From positions 124,001 through 188,000 of the forward strand of contig NZ_NQVN01000008.1 in assembly GCF_002770725.1 (NCBI RefSeq): 64,000 nt of DNA, given 5' to 3'. Source of the stretch: Pleomorphomonas carboxyditropha (lineage in GTDB: Bacteria > Pseudomonadota > Alphaproteobacteria > Rhizobiales > Pleomorphomonadaceae). Within the stretch, counting starts at the first letter, position 1; each line of letters opens with the position of its first letter. The position numbers and the translations under genes are program-made. Positions 2,741 to 63,431 of this stretch are shown here, in pieces. The notes beneath the pieces were generated by a model that was not told the origin of the DNA, ran no database searches, and saw nothing but the letters and a program-made list of their open reading frames with translations.

Positions 2741-5700
2741 ATGCAGTTCGAGCGGCTGAAGATACAGGGCTTCAAGTCCTTCGTGGATTTCTCCGAGTTC
2801 GTCATCGAACCCGGCCTGACCGGCGTGGTCGGGCCCAACGGCTGCGGCAAGTCGAACCTCGTCGAGGCCATGCGCTGGGTGATGGGCGAAAGCTCCTACA
2901 AGGCGATGCGCGCCTCCGGCATGGACGACGTCATCTTCTCCGGCTCCGGCAAGCGGCCGGCCCGCAATGCCGCCGAAGTGACGCTGGTGCTGAGAAACGA
3001 CCTGCGCACCGCGCCGCCCGCCTTCAATGAAGCCGATCTCCTGGAGGTGACCCGCCGCATCGAGCGGCAGGCCGGTTCCTCCTACCGCATCAACGGCAAG
3101 GACGTGCGCGCCCGCGACGTGCAACTCCTGTTCGCCGACGCCTCCACCGGCGCCCGCTCGCCGGCCATGGTGCGGCAGGGTCAGATCGGCGAGCTGATCG
3201 CCGCCAAGCCGACGCAGCGCCGCACCATCCTGGAGGAAGCGGCCGGCATCTCCGGCCTGCATTCCCGCCGCCACGACGCCGAACTGCGGCTTAAGGGCGC
3301 CGAGACCAACCTCACGCGCATGGAAGACGTGCTGCGCGAGATCGAGACGCGCCTCGAAGGCCTGCGCAGGCAGGCGCGGCAGGCGGCCCGCTATCGCAAT
3401 CTTTCCGCCGACATCCGCAAGGCCGAGGCCATCGTCGCCTTCCTGCGGGTCGGCGACCTGATGACCCAGGTCGAGGAAGCCGAAGCGCAGATGACCGACA
3501 GCTTCGGCGCCGTCGCCGACGCCCAGGCCGCCCAGACCGAGGCCGTCCGCCGCCAGGCGATCATTGCCCACGAGTTGCCGGGCCTGCGCGACCGGGCGGT
3601 GGAGACGGCGGCGGCGCTGCAGCGGCTTCGCATCGCGCTCGCCGAATCCGAGGCCGAGGAGCGGCGTGCCCGCGAGCGGCTGGCCGAGCTCTCCCGCCGC
3701 GCCGAGGAGATCGCCCGCGATCGCGCCCGCGAGGCGGCGCTGGTGGCCGAGAACGACGAGCGTCTCGCCGCCCTTTCCGACGAGGCGGAGGCGCTGGCCG
3801 CCGAGGAGCTCGGCGAGGAGGAGCGGCAGGCGGAGGCGGAGGCGCTTGCCTCCGACATCGCCGCCCGTCTCGCCGACATCGACGCCGAGCTCGCCGCCGC
3901 CACCGCCGCCGAGGCCGAGGCGGCCGCGCTGAAGGGGGCGCTCGAACGCGAGATCCGCGAGGCCGGCCTTCGCCTCGATCGTCTTCTCCGCGATCTCCAG
4001 GGTCTCGACGCCGAGCTGGCCGAGCTCGACGAACGGCTCGATGCCGACGACGCCATCGCCGCCGCCCGCGAGGAGATCGAGCTGGCCGCCGCCATGGTGT
4101 TCGAGGCCGAGACCGCCGCCGACGACGCCGAGGCCGGCCGCCGCGCCGCCGAGGAAGAGCGTCTCGCCGCCACGGGGCCGCTCGCCGAGGCCGAGCGCGA
4201 GCTCCAGAAGCTCGACACCGAGGCGCGCACCCTGGCCAAGATGCTGGATATCGAGCACGGCCAGTTGTTCCCGCCGCTGGTCGACCGCCTGACGCCGCAG
4301 AAGGGCTTCGAGACGGCGCTGGCCGCCGCCCTCGGCGAGGACATCGAGGCGCCGATGGACGATCGCGCCCCGGCCTACTGGACCATGCCGGGCGACGGTG
4401 CCGCCGATCCGCCGCTGCCGGACGGCGTGCCGCCGCTCGCCAAGTTCGTCGATGGCCCCGATCTCATCGGCCGCCGCCTGCGCCAGATCGGCGTCGTCAA
4501 GGCCGAGGATGCCGCGCGGTTACAGCCGCTGCTCGCCGCCGGCCAGATGCTGGTGACGCTCGACGGCGCGCTCTGGCGCTGGGACGGCTACGCCGCGGCC
4601 GCCGATGCGCCGACCGTCGCCGCCCGCCGGCTGGCCGCCCGCAACCGCCTCGCCGAGATCGATGCCCTGCGCCAGGCGGCGGGCGAGCTGTGTGCCGCCC
4701 GGCGCCAGGTGCTCGACGGCGCCGAGGCGCGCCTGCGCGAGGCCGAGGCCGAGGAGCGCGCCGCCCGCGAAGCGGTCAAGGCGGCCGAGCGCGCCGCGTC
4801 CGCCGCCCGCGACCGCCTGCTGCTGGCCGAGCGGGCGCTGGCCGAAACCGTCGCCCGCCGCGCCGCCGCCGCCGGCCAGCGCGAGCGCCTTGCCGTCGAT
4901 GCCGAGGAGCTCGCCGCCCGCAAGGCCGAGGCCGAGGAGCGGCATGCCGAGCTGACCGACGCTTCGTACCTCTCGGCCCGTGTCCAGGATCTGCGGAGCG
5001 AGGCGGCCGACACGCGCGCCCGCTTCTCGGAGGCGCGCGCCGCCGTCGACCTGATCCGCCGCGAGGGCGAATTGCGCCAGCGCCGCGTGGAGGCGATCGA
5101 GCGCGAGCGGGCCGGCTGGGGCGACCGCGTGCGCCACGCCGCCGCCCATCTCGACGAACTGGACGACCGGCTCGCCCAGGTGGAGGACGAGCGGGCCGAG
5201 CTGATCGACCGGCCGGATGAGATCGTCGAGGCCCGCCGCGGCCTGATGCGGGCGATCGCCGACGCCGAGGCGGCCGGCACCGAGGCCGCCGATCGCCTGC
5301 GCGACGGCGAGCTGCAGGCCGGCGAGGCCGACCGCGCCGCCGCCGACGCCCTGGCCCGGCTTTCCACCATCCGCGAGGGCAGGGTGCGCGCCGAGGAGCG
5401 GCTCGCCGCGGTAAAGCAGCGGCTCGAGGAATATGCCGGCGAGATTCGCGACCGCTTCGACGCGCCGCTCTATGCCCTGCGCCAGCTCGCCGAAATCGAC
5501 GAGGATGCGCCGTTGCCGGACATCGTCGGCGTGGAGACCCGGCTCGAACGGCTGAAGGTGGAGCGCGACAAGCTCGGCGGCGTCAACCTGCAGGCCGAGA
5601 CCGAGCAGGCCGAGCTGGAGGAGCGGCTCGATACGCTGGTCAACGAGCGCGAGGACCTGATCGAGGCGATCCGCCGGCTGCGCCAGGGCATCCAGAACCT

Positions 5701-16694: not shown

Positions 16695-17936
16695 TCAATC
16701 CGCTCGGCGTCTCAGCACCGCCACCACCTCGACGTGGCTCGACCACAGGAACTGGTCGACCGGCGTGACGGTCTCGATGCGATAGCCGCCGTCCACCAAG
16801 GTCCTGAGATCGCGGGAGAGCGTGGCTGGATTGCAGGAGACGGCGACGACGGTCGGCACCTTCGAGCGGGCGAGCCACAGGCTCTGTTCGGCGGCGCCGG
16901 CGCGCGGCGGATCGAACACCACGGCGTCGATCTTCTCGAGTTCCTTTTCAATGAGCGGGCGGCGAGCCAGGTCGCGCCTCTCGGCGGTGATCCGGTGGCG
17001 CCCCGTCATGCCGCGCGCCGCCCGGTCGAGCGCCGCCACGGCGCCGGCCTCGCCCTCGATCGCCAGCACCTCGGCCTGCCGGGCAAGGCGCAGCGCGAAG
17101 GTGCCGATGCCCGAGAAAAGGTCGGCGACGCGCTTCGCCTTGGCGGGAATGGCGGCCGTCACCAATTCGCCCATGATCGCTTCGGCCTCCGCCGAGGCCT
17201 GCAGGAAGCCGCCGGGCGGCAACGTGACGGCAACGCCGTCGATATCGATGGCGGCGGAGCGGCGTTCGACGATCGCCTCGCCGCCGGCCGACAGGCGGGC
17301 AAGGTCGAAGCGTTCGGCAAGTTCGATCAGCGGCAGGCGCAGGCGGTCGACGTCGCGCGCCGCGATGCCGGCGACCGACACGTCGAGGCCGCCGGCGGTC
17401 AGCGTCACCGTGAGGTCGAGCCCGCCTTTCCTGGGTGCGACCAGACCGGTCAGCGCGGTCAGCGCCGGCAGCGCGGCGAGAAGCTGCGGCTTGACGACCG
17501 GACACTCCTCAAGGCCGACGAGCCGGTGGCTGGCCCGCTCGTTGAAGCCGACCAGCGGATGCCGGCCGGCCATGATGCCGGCGAAGGTGGCGCGGCGGCG
17601 GGAGTGCGGCGGCACGACGCGCGTTTCGCCGATATCGGCCGTCAGGCCGCGATCGGCCAGCGCGTCGACGACGAGCCGCCGCTTGAAGTCGGCATAGGGC
17701 GCCGGCGCCACATGCTGTAATAGACAGCCGCCGCAGGCGCCGAAATGCCGGCAGGCCGGCTCGATGCGGTCGGGGGAGGGCGTGAGGATGCGGTTGAGCC
17801 GCGTCGCGCCGCCCTGGAGATCGACATCGACGGTTTCGCCGGCCAGCGTATACGGCACGAACAACGACCGCCCGTCCGGTTGGAGGACGACGCCGTCACC
17901 GCGATGGCCGAGGCGGTCGATTACCAGTTCAGTCAA
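16695..17936 (-). CDS. Class I SAM-dependent RNA (uracil-C5)-methyltransferase, TrmA/RlmD family
   Basis: Methylates C5 of a uridine in rRNA or tRNA. The 413-residue protein has an N-terminal TRAM-like part. A [4Fe-4S] ligand set of Cys62, Cys68, Cys71 and Cys145 follows (CRHFGACGGC ... EECPV). The SAM motif is VADLFSGIGTFALRLA (about 272), and FDPPRAGA and the catalytic Cys appear in AVSCNPATLSRDL. TTG at 17936 was taken as start: it has GGAG upstream and overlaps the tlyA stop by eight bases (TTGACTGA), a coupling signal. Which of the paralogues RlmC, RlmD or TrmA it equals cannot be decided here. Confidence 0.9.
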   Translation of the reverse strand: MTELVIDRLGHRGDGVVLQPDGRSLFVPYTLAGETVDVDLQGGATRLNRILTPSPDRIEPACRHFGACGGCLLQHVAPAPYADFKRRLVVDALADRGLTADIGETRVVPPHSRRRATFAGIMAGRHPLVGFNERASHRLVGLEECPVVKPQLLAALPALTALTGLVAPRKGGLDLTVTLTAGGLDVSVAGIAARDVDRLRLPLIELAERFDLARLSAGGEAIVERRSAAIDIDGVAVTLPPGGFLQASAEAEAIMGELVTAAIPAKAKRVADLFSGIGTFALRLARQAEVLAIEGEAGAVAALDRAARGMTGRHRITAERRDLARRPLIEKELEKIDAVVFDPPRAGAAEQSLWLARSKVPTVVAVSCNPATLSRDLRTLVDGGYRIETVTPVDQFLWSSHVEVVAVLRRRAD

Positions 17937-59332: not shown

Positions 59333-60499
59333 GTGACCGATCCGCGAAATCCCGTGACGAAAGACCAGCCGCGCTGGCTTGGCAGCGTTTCCTCCGGCCG
59401 TGTGCCGATCGTGCCGCTGATCGCCGCCGCGCGGTGGCTGCTGCTGCTGATCGTCATCGCCGGCATCTATTTCTTCAGCGGTTTCGTCATCCCGGTGCTG
59501 GCCGCGCTGGTGATCGGCTTTGCCACTTGGCCGCTGTTCCGCGACCTGACGCGGCTCTGCGACGGCAATACCAAGCTCAGCGCCTCGATCGCGCTCGTCT
59601 GCATCCTGCTGTTCCTGATCGTGCCGATGCTGGTGGCCGCCAGCTTCGCCTTCGACGAGTTCAAGGTCTGGTTCAACTGGCTGCTGGAGGCCAATCGCAG
59701 CGGCGTGGCGGTGCCGCCGTGGATCGCCGCGCTGCCGATGGTGGGGGAGTGGCTGGCCGAGCAGTGGAGCCTGCATGTCGGCCCGCCGGGCGCCATCGGC
59801 GAACTGATCCAGATGACCTCCGGCGCCAACATCGGCAACATCTACAGGGCCATCATGACGGCCGGCGGCGAGGCCTTCCGGCTCTTGCTGACGCTGCTGT
59901 TCATGATGATCGCCCTGTTCTTCGTCTACAAGGACGGCAGCGCCCTGGTGGCGCAGATCGATCTGGTCGGCGAGCGCATCCTGCCGGCGCGCTGGGCCCG
60001 CATATCGCGCATCGTGCCGGCCACCATCAGCTCCACCGTCACCGGCATGACGCTGATCGCCATCGGCGAGGGCATCGTGCTCGGCGTCGCCTACTGGATC
60101 GCCGGCGTCCCTTCGCCGGCCATCTTCGGGGTGATCACCGGCATCATGGCGCTCATTCCGGGCGGCGCGCCGCTCAGCTTCACGCTGATTTCGATCTACC
60201 TCATCGCCAGCGGGCATATTGTCGAAGGCGCCGCGCTGTTCACCTGGGGAACGGTCGAGCTGTTCATCGTCGACAAGACCTTGCGGCCGCGCCTCGTCGG
60301 CGGGCCGATCAAATTGCCCTTCCTGCCGACCTTCTTCGGCCTCATCGGCGGCGTCAAGACCATGGGCTTTCTCGGCCTGTTCATCGGGCCGGTGCTGATG
60401 GCGCTGCTCGTCGCCATCTGGCGCGAATGGCTCATGGAGCTGCGGAGCGAGGAAACGCCAGTCGCGCCGCCGCCGTTGCGTGAGCCGCCCAAGACCTGA
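59333..60499 (+). CDS. AI-2E family transporter (YdiK-like)
   Basis: Membrane protein of the AI-2E/PerM exporter family, 388 residues, about eight membrane segments. They include FFSGFVIPVLAALVIGFATW, ASIALVCILLFLIVPMLVAA, LLTLLFMMIALFFVYKDGSA and the C-terminal pore-like FFGLIGGVKTMGFLGLFIGP, a conserved G-G-x-x-x-G-x-x-G-x-x-x-G-P pattern. Members export small molecules or exchange Na+/H+; autoinducer-2 transport is only one reported case. The start is a GTG at 59333. A short proline-rich tail closes the protein. Confidence 0.9.
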   Translation: MTDPRNPVTKDQPRWLGSVSSGRVPIVPLIAAARWLLLLIVIAGIYFFSGFVIPVLAALVIGFATWPLFRDLTRLCDGNTKLSASIALVCILLFLIVPMLVAASFAFDEFKVWFNWLLEANRSGVAVPPWIAALPMVGEWLAEQWSLHVGPPGAIGELIQMTSGANIGNIYRAIMTAGGEAFRLLLTLLFMMIALFFVYKDGSALVAQIDLVGERILPARWARISRIVPATISSTVTGMTLIAIGEGIVLGVAYWIAGVPSPAIFGVITGIMALIPGGAPLSFTLISIYLIASGHIVEGAALFTWGTVELFIVDKTLRPRLVGGPIKLPFLPTFFGLIGGVKTMGFLGLFIGPVLMALLVAIWREWLMELRSEETPVAPPPLREPPKT

Positions 60500-60540
60500 G
60501 GGGGCGGCCAACCTGCCGGCAGGCGGCTGGCTCGGCAACT

Positions 60541-61176
60541 CTACTTGAGGGGAATGGCCGTCCGGAACTTGCCCTGCTGGTAGGCGTCCGACAGCTCCGC
60601 GTAGTCCGCCCGGATGCTGTCGGCCCGCGCCCGAAACGCCGCGCGGCCGGCGTCGTCGCAGGCGGCTATCAGGTCGGCGATGTGCTCGCTGCGCCAGAAG
60701 GCGTTGCTGCGCCGGTAGCCGCCGGGCTCCAGCGTGAAAACCTCCCTCAGTATCTTCAGGTCGTGCGGGATGGAAAAGGCATCGCGCGAATCCTCGTGGC
60801 TGAAGAAATAGAAGAAGTTGTCGAAGCCGGCCCAGGTGATGGCCGACAGGCACATCGGGCAGGGCTCATGCGTCGACAGGAAGAGCAAATCGCCGGTATT
60901 CGGCCGTTCCCCGATCTCGTAGAATTTCTTGATGGTGTGCACTTCGCCGTGCCAGAGCGGATTTTCAATCTCGTTGTTGGTCCCGGCCAGCACGACCGAA
61001 TAGTCCCTCTTGTCGAGGAGGGCGGCGCCGAACACCTTGTTGCCGGCGGCGACGCCGGCCCGCGTCAAAGGCAATATGTGCCGCTCGATCGCCATGAGCA
61101 GCGCGTCGACGAGCCGTTCCTGTCGTCCCTCGGCCATGCCTCGGTTCCCATCCGGTATGTTTTCCAACGCCATCAT
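60541..61176 (-). CDS. Cytidine/deoxycytidylate deaminase-family protein
   Basis: Zinc-dependent nucleoside or base deaminase of 211 residues. The metal site is His77-Ala/Gly-Glu79 (WHGEVH) and Pro-Cys106-Pro-Met-Cys109 (HEPCPMCLSAI). The region after the zinc site is longer than in CDA or TadA (FDNFFYFFSHEDSRDAFSIP), with a C-terminal helical extension. Substrate is unknown. ATG 61176 has GGAGAG eight bases upstream; ATG 61137 is a second choice. It is convergent with the AI-2E gene. Confidence 0.88.
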   Translation of the reverse strand: MMALENIPDGNRGMAEGRQERLVDALLMAIERHILPLTRAGVAAGNKVFGAALLDKRDYSVVLAGTNNEIENPLWHGEVHTIKKFYEIGERPNTGDLLFLSTHEPCPMCLSAITWAGFDNFFYFFSHEDSRDAFSIPHDLKILREVFTLEPGGYRRSNAFWRSEHIADLIAACDDAGRAAFRARADSIRADYAELSDAYQQGKFRTAIPLK

Positions 61177-61219
61177 CGCGGGTCTCTCCAGCCGGCACAA
61201 GGCGGCATCGGCCGAACCG

Positions 61220-61663
61220 TCATTGGCGCCGCTGTCCCGCCTTCTCCAATGTCTCGCTCATGCGAGCGCGCCAGTCGGCCCCGCCGAGTGCCTTGAAGCG
61301 GGCGATTGTCTCCGGCGACAGGCGAAGGGTGACCGCCTCTTTCGGACTGGCGACCTTTGGCCGTCCCCGCGCCCGCTTGATGCTCGCCGCCAGTTCGGGG
61401 AGAGCCTCCGACAAGGGAACCATCTTCGCCAGTTCGGCATCGGTCAGCGGACGTTCGATTTCCGGATCAGGCCCAATAAGCTCGCCGGTCGCATTGTCCA
61501 CCCACCAACCATCGTCGTCCTGATGGACACCACCCGTGGCGATAAGAGCTTTCATCTCGCGGTCGTAGGCTTCCCACCGGCGCCGCATCTCCGCGTCATC
61601 CTCCGGACTGTCGCCTAGGTCCCGGGTTGAGAAGTTGGGCCATTTCTTCTGCATTTCAGCCAT
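61220..61663 (-). CDS. brnA: BrnA-type antitoxin (orphaned)
   Basis: Antitoxin-like DNA-binding protein of the BrnA/DUF4415 family, 147 residues. The N-terminal ~65 residues are an unusual acidic, Trp-rich part (WEAYDREMKALI, DDDGWWVDNATGEL). The family core follows: RPLTDAELAKMVPLSEALPE, then GRPKVASPKEAVTLRLSPET and the ribbon-helix-helix end FKALGGADWRARMSETLEKA. It would neutralise BrnT and repress its own operon. The toxin gene in front of it (61656-61796) is truncated, so this is an antitoxin without a working partner here. The ATG overlaps the brnT remnant by eight bases. Confidence 0.85.
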   Translation of the reverse strand: MAEMQKKWPNFSTRDLGDSPEDDAEMRRRWEAYDREMKALIATGGVHQDDDGWWVDNATGELIGPDPEIERPLTDAELAKMVPLSEALPELAASIKRARGRPKVASPKEAVTLRLSPETIARFKALGGADWRARMSETLEKAGQRRQ

Positions 61664-61796
61664 AGACCATGCTCCTTTCCCTGCGGCTTGCCGGGCGCAT
61701 TGAAATCACGGACAGGGCCTCGGAACCCAGCGGCCGGAAGACTACGGCGATGATCGTCTCACCCCGAAACTCTCCGATCGCGACGATTAGCGTCTA
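61656..61796 (-). pseudogene. brnT toxin gene, 5'-truncated remnant
   Basis: Reading the minus strand in frame to TGA at 61656 gives the C-terminal 45 residues of a BrnT-type RNase toxin: TLIVAIGEFRGETIIAVVF, then RPLGSEALSVISMRPASRRE and RSMVYG. Directly upstream (61794-61796) is a TAG, and no frame further upstream resembles the missing N-terminal half (the usual W-D-E-x-K-R ... N-x-x-K-H-G part). There is no start codon before the conserved core. The normal brnT-brnA overlap is kept, so the toxin was lost by a break near 61793. The plus-strand frame across this stretch is antisense to it. Confidence 0.75.
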
Positions 61797-61927
61797 TCGC
61801 GATGTCAACGGCCGACGTGAGCAGCGCACGACGCAGGTTGGCGGCATGGAGATCGAGGACATTGCCCGCCAGTTGGCGAGCGAGTTGCCGAAGGCATAGC
61901 CGCCCCAAGCATCGAGAACGAACCTAG

Positions 61928-61953
61928 AGCCCGCTGGGGAGCCTCGGCGGGCT
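61928..61953 (+). terminator. Possible terminator between the brnT remnant and the low-GC cassette
   Basis: AGCCCGC-N12-GCGGGCT stem ending at 61953, where the stop codon of the minus-strand gene begins. It is followed by TTATCCC only, so weak. Confidence 0.35.
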
Positions 61954-62291
61954 TATCCCTCTCCGCCGTGCACAGAACAATAGCTTCCTTCAAGCTCAAT
62001 CCATTCAGCTATTGGTCTCTGGATGCCACCCTTTATGATGTTCTGGCAACGAGTCCCTTTCTTCGTGATCGCTCCGCATCTCGGAGCACCGTCTGATTCG
62101 ACCCAAGCAATATACTGCTCCCGGCTAGCACCTACTGTTTTTGCAGAGAAACTGACTCGATCCTGAATAAAGAAAGGAACATCTGACGCATCTAGTAGAA
62201 TATTATGCCCTCCACCGGGGACGATAATATTAACAGCGAACTTAATACCAGCCGATTTCATTGCAGAGATTGTGTCTATATCTAGTTTCAT
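61953..62291 (-). CDS. Unknown protein with C-terminal Cys/His knuckle (low-GC cassette)
   Basis: A 112-residue protein not recognised. The first 60 residues look like a small alpha/beta domain (IKFAVNIIVPGGGHNILLDA). The C-terminal part has a zinc-knuckle-like set CGAITKKGTRCQN ... SYCSVHGG, i.e. C-x9-C and later C-x2-H, which resembles short metal-binding tails found in phage and plasmid proteins. It starts inside the stop of the preceding gene (ATGA overlap), so both are one operon. Base composition is far less GC-rich than the chromosome around it, indicating acquisition. No function is proposed. Confidence 0.7.
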   Translation of the reverse strand: MKLDIDTISAMKSAGIKFAVNIIVPGGGHNILLDASDVPFFIQDRVSFSAKTVGASREQYIAWVESDGAPRCGAITKKGTRCQNIIKGGIQRPIAEWIELEGSYCSVHGGEG

Positions 62292-62743
62292 TTTGGATAG
62301 CTCTTAGTTACCATTAATCGACAGGCTAATTTTGGGCTATGACTGCGGATCGCAAAGTAGTCGGATACCTCAAACCAGCTTCCACTAACTCCAGTCCCAT
62401 GATTCACCCCCATGCAGGAGCATTGACATTCGTGCCCCTCTGCCTCCATGCATGCGCGCGCACAAATTTCTTGCTCTCGAAACGGCTGAACAACATAAAC
62501 ACAGCCATATTTTTCCAAAGACCTGTCGACAAAATCGTTGAACCAAGCCTTGGGTAGCTCCCAATACTTCTCGGATGCAATCCACTCCGGCTTTATTCTA
62601 CGAGCATCGCGCAACCATTGATAATTATCGTCGGCAAATGGCAAGCGAACACGCAATCGCTCACCTTTACCCCCTCGCCTTAGGACAATGGGTATCCTCG
62701 TTTGGTTCCACGCGGCCTTAAGACGGTATTCCTCGGGGCTCAT
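62288..62743 (-). CDS. Unknown Cys-rich protein (low-GC cassette)
   Basis: A 151-residue protein not recognised. The N-terminal half is basic with many aromatic residues (RVRLPFADDNYQWLRDARR, KPEWIASEKYWELPKAWFND). The centre has a dense cysteine motif CARACMEAEGHECQCSCMGV followed by NHG, that is C-x3-C-x7-C-x-C-x-C-x4-H, likely a metal site. No signal peptide or membrane segment is seen. It is first in a two-gene operon with the Cys/His protein. Low GC content and the tRNA-Gln gene 220 bp upstream suggest a small island. Confidence 0.72.
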   Translation of the reverse strand: MSPEEYRLKAAWNQTRIPIVLRRGGKGERLRVRLPFADDNYQWLRDARRIKPEWIASEKYWELPKAWFNDFVDRSLEKYGCVYVVQPFREQEICARACMEAEGHECQCSCMGVNHGTGVSGSWFEVSDYFAIRSHSPKLACRLMVTKSYPK

Positions 62744-62965
62744 AGCAGACTCCGAGTCGGTTGTTTAATCATGGCACGAACAACCGTTCGCTTAAACCGC
62801 ACCATTGCGGAGAAGGACCAGCAATCCACACGCCTACGAAGAAGCGATTCCGAACCTTAGGTCCGATTATCCACAGGCCCTAGCCCCGGTGTAGCACCCA
62901 CAAAACTGTAACACTTAGCATTTTCTAATATTCTATAAGCCATTGAAAAATAATATAAAAGACGA

Positions 62966-63040
62966 TGGCTGGGGTGGCAGGATTCGAACCTACGAATGGC
63001 GGAATCAAAATCCGCTGCCTTACCACTTGGCGACACCCCA
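62966..63040 (-). tRNA. tRNA-Gln (anticodon TTG)
   Basis: Cloverleaf on the minus strand. The acceptor TGGGGTG pairs with CACCCCA and the anticodon stem is GCGGA/TCCGC with loop TTTTGAT (anticodon TTG, reads CAA). The T arm contains GGTTCGAATCC. Discriminator G and an encoded CCA (62966-62968) follow. The low-GC cassette lies off its 3' end. Confidence 0.95.
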
Positions 63041-63273
63041 TCCGGCGGCCTCGGCCGCGGTCCGCTCGATATAGCCGCAACATGATCGGACTGCAACAAC
63101 GCCGGTGACGGCGAACCACGACGATGACGGCCGCCGCATCCCGGTCCCGTCGACCTCGCCGGCGGCGGTTTTGCACTGCGGTCCGGGGCGCGCAAAATCC
63201 CTGATTCACAAGTATGAATTTGGGGCTTGCAGAGGCGGGGAGGGGACGCTATACACCGCCCCACCGACGGTTA

Positions 63274-63350
63274 CGGAGTGTAGCGCAGCCTGGTAGCGCA
63301 CCTGCTTCGGGAGCAGGGGGTCGCGTGTTCAAATCACGCCACTCCGACCA
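63274..63350 (+). tRNA. tRNA-Pro (anticodon CGG)
   Basis: Acceptor CGGAGTG pairs with CACTCCG, followed by discriminator A and encoded CCA. The D arm is GCGCAGCCTGGTAGCGC. The anticodon stem is CCTGC/GCAGG with loop TTCGGGA (anticodon CGG, reads CCG). The T arm contains GTTCAAATC. A 77-nt gene. Confidence 0.96.
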
Positions 63351-63431
63351 TTCTTCCCGCAAATTCAATGAACTGCCGATGATGCGATGGGATATGCGCC
63401 GGCGTTTGCGCGCCGTCGCGGCGGCATCGCG

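Follow-up and report, generated by a model that had tools for sequence, protein, structure and literature searches.

Organization of the locus

The DNA analyzed here (referred to below as the window, the whole stretch of 64,000 nucleotides) contains two small overlapping genes, A and B, located between a damaged toxin-antitoxin operon and a tRNA-Gln gene. In a sequence-only reading they had been put forward as a candidate for an undescribed two-component system on a small defence or phage-derived island.

Both open reading frames at 61953–62743 were confirmed and both are intact. Gene A (62288–62743, minus strand) encodes a protein of 151 amino acids from a conserved family, composed of an N-terminal alpha/beta domain (approximately residues 15–88), HARP-like by predicted fold, and a C-terminal Cys/His knuckle with the motif E-x-C-x3-C-x2-A-x4-C-x-C-S-C-x-G-x2-H-G. 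Gene B (61953–62291, minus strand) encodes 112 amino acids with a C-terminal C-x9-C...C-x2-H finger. The stop of A and the start of B overlap by four bases (62288–62291, minus strand), as is evident from both the coordinates and the sequence, and the two genes are presumably co-transcribed. The tRNA-Gln (TTG) gene revealed by Rfam at 62966–63040 is on the minus strand, so that its 3' end is directed toward the A-B block, just as the earlier reading had placed it. The right flank is formed by a tRNA-Pro gene (63274–63350, plus strand; Rfam), which is conserved in the genus. Apart from these two tRNAs, no Rfam match was found over the locus. A scan of the locus for terminators detected none, and the number of promoter-like sites (three, against a mean of 1.5 in shuffled sequences) was uninformative.

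The base composition of the two genes was said to be unlike that of the chromosome, and this proved correct: the GC content of the 791-bp A-B block is 0.480 (0.493 for A and 0.460 for B), against 0.674 for the window. Among 1265 sliding windows of 791 bp (mean GC 0.674, s.d. 0.045) only five were at or below the block value plus 0.005, and all five overlap the A-B block, which is the lowest-GC part. The A family is not GC-poor in general: over 21 further loci the GC content of A ranged from 0.485 to 0.668 and was near that of each respective locus.

The remaining genes of the locus have a different composition. An intact brnA antitoxin gene (61220–61663, minus strand; PF14384, 59.7 bits) has a GC content of 0.635. 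Upstream of it we found only a C-terminal fragment of brnT (61662–61793, minus strand), which matches the last 34 positions (44–77 of 77) of PF04365 with 22.5 bits and an E value of 1.5e-4, below the cut-off of 34.5 bits. The toxin-antitoxin pair is thus broken, as had been noticed from the letters, and brnA remains beside the brnT remnant as an orphan antitoxin. Farther to the left is a cytidine/deoxycytidylate deaminase-like gene (60541–61200, minus strand; GC 0.636), identified by PF00383 and synteny. It also matches MafB19-deam, more weakly than PF00383. Since brnA and the deaminase gene are both near the GC content of the window, the inserted stretch is a mosaic. Pfam analysis of the five proteins encoded at 60541–62743 revealed no defence system besides the orphan BrnA.

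The tRNA-Gln gap in related genomes

The stretch with the tRNA-Gln and tRNA-Pro genes has matches in all 20 genomes of the family, the source genome included, and aligns unbroken in the source genome, in 11 genomes of the same genus and in G001 (68%). For the region to the left of it, where the deaminase gene forms the flank of a variable gap, we compared stretches of G001 and of nine among the 13 relatives belonging to the same genus; G010, G012, G016 and G018 were left out of this comparison. The distance from the deaminase gene to tRNA-Gln is only 155 bp in G009, 187 bp in G017 and 214 bp in G011, against 1.76–1.81 kb in the window, and the stretch at 61203–62963 (1761 bp, compared with the 155 bp of G009) has no counterpart in G009. 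From these near-empty gaps the net extra DNA in the window can be estimated at about 1.6 kb. A near-empty site, as expected for a tRNA-integrated island, is present in these three close relatives.

Other relatives carry different DNA at the same place. In G007, G014 and G019 the gap is filled with 1.4–1.6 kb of DNA different from that of the window; by Pfam, this DNA includes a DUF4238 gene in the case of G007 and a GGDEF gene in that of G014, and a similar ORF can be read in G019. In G008 the deaminase gene, a conserved flank in several relatives, is missing too, and no match to the left flank of the window was found in G013 and G015 within the 17.5–17.7 kb taken. Searches of the other 19 genomes of the family found neither A nor B. 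The suggestion that horizontally acquired DNA lies on the 3' side of tRNA-Gln is in agreement with all these data: by sequence comparison the tRNA-Gln gap is a variable spot, and the window appears to hold a small imported remnant there.

At the tRNA-Gln spot of G013 we found a DUF4238 gene together with a phage-type integrase gene (PF00589, PF20172), and a fragment of this integrase (54% over 68 residues) is retained in G007. When the G013 integrase, the only type searched for, was sought in the window, the best E value was 0.048, which is not significant. The tRNA end occurs only once in the window when up to three mismatches in 21 bases are allowed, and its 3' part is not directly repeated at the far edge within 60400–63400. 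With a single copy, the mode of entry can only be inferred. Intergenic DNA aligns poorly in the genus, so that the break of alignment at the tRNA gives weak support to site-specific integration. The supposed defence or phage-derived nature of the island stands in part. It is favoured by the integrase at the site in G013 and by the linkage of A to defence genes in other replicons (see below); the lack of a significant match to that integrase, of a second tRNA end and of any defence system other than the orphan BrnA among the five proteins scanned counts against it.

The DUF6538/phage-integrase gene of G013 is located at positions 2331–3653 of L103 and its fragment in G007 at 17430–17627 of L101; its product is a possible user of the site. 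The DUF4238 genes of the tRNA-Gln gap are found at 5230–6123 of L103 and 16596–17450 of L101.

Distribution and conserved residues of the A family

Homologues of A were detected by tblastn in 32 plasmid records and in eight Streptomyces phages, and 33 loci and one weak further match were found in IMG/VR. In chromosomes the gene is rare, judging from the genomes searched: it was present in four of 297 genomes of the order set (search with a single protein) and in two of 385 genomes of the class set (search with a profile), the source genome being counted in both.

The metal knuckle proposed for A, C-x3-C-x7-C-x-C-x-C-x4-H, is invariant in 19 aligned members. The residues common to all of them are W43, W61, C94, C98, A101, C106, C108, S109, C110, G112, H115 and G116. 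The A protein of the window received no name from Pfam, NCBIfam or PADLOC-DB 2023, and Pfam analysis of the 19 members gave only two stray hits with E values of 0.15 and 0.23. One of the closest known groups is phrog_6842, a phage family with no assigned function, which was matched by 16 of the 19 members at E values of 0.01 or less; for A of the window the match (E = 0.0019) extends over 27 residues and covers the Cys knuckle. No significant sequence relatives of A or of B were found in the PDB. A limited set of literature contained nothing on A or B, and a description elsewhere is possible. A represents a genuine, unnamed family in which Cys and His residues are invariant.

Predicted fold of A

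The AlphaFold2 model of A has a pLDDT of 84–94 at residues 11–80 and of 54–57 at the knuckle (residues 91–120). The N-terminal domain starts with a helix, followed by five strands and two core helices; two more strands are predicted past the knuckle, at 125–132 and 138–145. According to PMC4666394, the HARP domain consists of a sheet of five strands that packs on two helices, and T4 UvsW contains one such domain.

Structural searches with this model gave weak matches. The single BFVD match with an E value under 0.001 (7.8e-8) is an unnamed protein of 138 amino acids. The lower matches include two phage proteins, one related to HepA (E = 0.016) and one of 73 amino acids under the name 'SWI/SNF-related matrix-associated actin-dependent regulator ...' (probability 0.97, TMt 0.67, E = 0.083), as well as MutS-like proteins (E values of 0.15 and above). 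We read the HepA-related and SWI/SNF-related names as pointing to HARP/SMARCAL1. In the PDB the highest-scoring structures were N-domains of the MutS family (Z 5.0–5.2), followed by Alba (4.7) and, farther down, XPB (5tnu, 4.1), at a level of Z that is common by chance; no Foldseek match in the PDB had an E value under 0.001 (the best was 0.057), and no HARP structure is among the PDB matches listed for A. HARP is said to have been grouped with XPB and MutS domains by Mason et al. in 2014. MutS and XPB domains, as fold neighbours, both appear among the PDB matches.

The similarity of A to the HARP domain (PF07443; SMARCAL1, T4 UvsW) is thus in the predicted N-domain of five strands and two helices. 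Unlike the proteins with this domain, A has no motor domain and nothing in Pfam matches it; its C-terminal part carries an additional Cys knuckle and two further strands, and the statistics are weak. PF07443 did not match A or any of the 19 members at an E value of 1, and no match to it exists in the source genome. Since Z values of about 5 can arise by chance, we call A HARP-like by predicted fold and not a member of this family; its N-terminal model weakly resembles a DNA-binding domain of the HARP, MutS mismatch-recognition or XPB type.

Genes adjoining A in other replicons

The surroundings of A were examined in 18 loci of plasmids or genomes (L003, L004, L009–L012, L018–L024, L026 and L110–L113). 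PADLOC was applied to selected neighbour proteins, L011, L020, L022, L026 and L111 being outside the scan, and gave positive neighbours of A in 11 of the 18 loci. A CBASS phospholipase or cyclase is encoded near A in six of them (L004, L009, L010, L023, L110 and L113), and Gabija GajA with GajB in two (L019 and L112). The other systems were each found once: PDC-M54A in L018, where an adjacent gene carries a Shedu annotation; an argonaute of class II in L024; and an LmuB-like, that is Lamassu-like, ATPase in L003 (95.5 bits). Two scanned loci, L012 (a fragment of 272 amino acids) and L021, were negative, and in L026 Abi and Cas2 are present near A by annotation only. In L110, L112 and L113 the A genes form one cluster at 90% identity, yet their neighbours are CBASS, Gabija and CBASS, respectively.

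For comparison, five control slices of 50 kb were taken from five of the same plasmids. Their annotation includes toxin-antitoxin genes, but CBASS, Shedu, Gabija and Abi are absent from it. When ten large proteins encoded in four of the slices were scanned, one weak match resulted (mad8, 25 bits); this control is small and consists of nine 'hypothetical' proteins and one ATP-binding protein picked for their size and uninformative names. Genes of the M78 (ImmA/IrrE-like) type flank 11 of 39 A clusters, at distances of up to 4.4 kb, and none of the five control slices has them; by Pfam, three of these neighbours are HTH plus M78 proteins. The neighbourhoods suggest a role of A in defence.

The explanation that we prefer, tentatively and with somewhat less than even confidence, is that A is a stand-alone accessory of mobile defence islands, binding junction or damaged DNA, which was left in a decayed island, and that B is an independent passenger. 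The locus would then be the remnant of such an island beside tRNA-Gln, and A a mobile accessory gene, associated with many anti-phage systems and bound to none of them. Its N-terminal domain would most likely bind branched, mismatched or single-strand-containing DNA, as the HARP, MutS mismatch-recognition and XPB domains do, and the Cys knuckle would probably bind zinc and add a contact with nucleic acid or protein. As an adaptor or regulator, A might in this way respond to the DNA structures that replication or damage produces during phage growth. B would be a zinc-finger-like protein whose overlap with A is here a matter of chance.

Another explanation, possible though doubtful, is that A is a general accessory of plasmid or phage replication or recombination that occurs in defence islands only through common mobile elements. 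Some A genes are located in phages or near conjugation genes and may therefore be passengers: in Streptomyces phage Quantum a DNA helicase gene and a DnaE-like gene are nearby, on pSH A is near traA, and 33 IMG/VR contigs contain the gene. The defence neighbours of A are, in addition, diverse, and its orientation relative to them varies. However, the proportion of PADLOC-positive loci, set against the single weak match among the control proteins, argues against this explanation.

It is unlikely that A and B are decaying passengers with no function at present in the source genome. The island is truncated, as the brnT fragment and the lack of a significant match to the G013 integrase indicate, but both frames are intact and A retains the residues invariant in its family.

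A further-reaching form of the preferred explanation seems to us rather improbable. According to it A would be a shared DNA-structure sensor, a stand-alone HARP-like and zinc-knuckle protein which recognizes phage-made replication forks or damage and then permits or adjusts the action of the adjoining defence system (CBASS, Gabija, argonaute or Lamassu-like), a new class of immune-pathway controller.

CapH and CapP are described in PMC13373217 as an HTH repressor and an ssDNA-activated peptidase that control adjacent immune operons. Like CapH with CapP, CapW and CapK with CapS ('controllers of associated/adjacent pathways'), A is a small gene adjoining immune operons of many kinds, and M78 peptidase genes are often near it. 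Unlike them, A and the 19 members have no Pfam match to HTH, peptidase (M78), WYL, STAS or kinase (GHKL) domains. If the preferred explanation is right, one small family connects the recognition of DNA structures, as known from fork remodellers, with many unrelated anti-phage systems, a matter of interest for the way in which these systems sense infection. A, an unnamed, defence-linked and possibly HARP-like Cys-knuckle protein, is the most interesting part of the locus, and as a gene of about 150 residues beside CBASS and Gabija it is a concrete candidate for testing.

Co-occurrence of A and B

The B profile was compared with six-frame ORFs of 53 A loci (14 from plasmids, one from a phage, 34 from IMG/VR and four from genomes) and the A profile with 11 B loci; neither comparison gave a single locus with both genes, in a count in which some locus flanks are short and 12 A plasmid records were left out. 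On the 11 B loci themselves the B profile gave eight strong matches, weak ones in L066 (28.3 bits) and L067 (17.1 bits) and no match in L068. Among the 297 genomes of the order set and the 385 of the class set, A and B occur together in the source genome alone. The homologues are always separate as far as searched, an outcome that the earlier reading had named as refuting its proposal, and within this material the A-B pairing is apparently specific to the source genome. A genuine two-component system, whether a toxin-antitoxin or a defence pair, could be suspected from the common strand, the four-base overlap and the similar low GC content of the genes, but it is very improbable in view of this co-occurrence record, on which we rejected it. 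The A-B pair itself is of little importance.

Gene B

Relatives of B were found in 11 plasmid records and in one further genome of the class set (G471), as well as in a Marivivens MAG (45% identity); there is also a short match in Bacteroidaceae. In viral contigs a scan with the single protein revealed none, and a scan with the alignment revealed two short matches to the finger (L067 and L068). Two of 83 stretches were confirmed in the contig scan, and because the peptide patterns used in it were narrow, B may be commoner than seen.

The second probable metal knuckle of the earlier reading was also recovered in the alignment: C72, C82, C105 and H108 of B are invariant in seven aligned members, one of which is a part sequence. 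B resembles the HGGxSTG domain (NF041373) in its C-x9-C...C-x2-H-G-G finger; unlike true members it scores 17.9 bits, below the NCBIfam cut-off of 29, and just one of the seven B members matches NF041373 at an E value of 0.1. In four of the seven, GvpO_arch_Nterm gives a better match than NF041373 (best E = 2.9e-4), and in B of the window this match covers the finger. The structural model, built from two sequences, is poor (pLDDT 58.6). These data are consistent with B being a rare, small zinc-finger-like protein.

The surroundings of B differ between replicons. In Paracoccus B adjoins recJ, in Marivivens it comes after an ORF that by our reading may encode RecJ, and in Halomonas it adjoins par genes. 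The Paracoccus copy (L005, 2413–2742) is interrupted by an in-frame stop. On a Caulobacter plasmid (L017, 4398–5228) a B-like finger forms the end of a longer annotated protein, with SbcCD-type, AbiEii and restriction genes located nearby.
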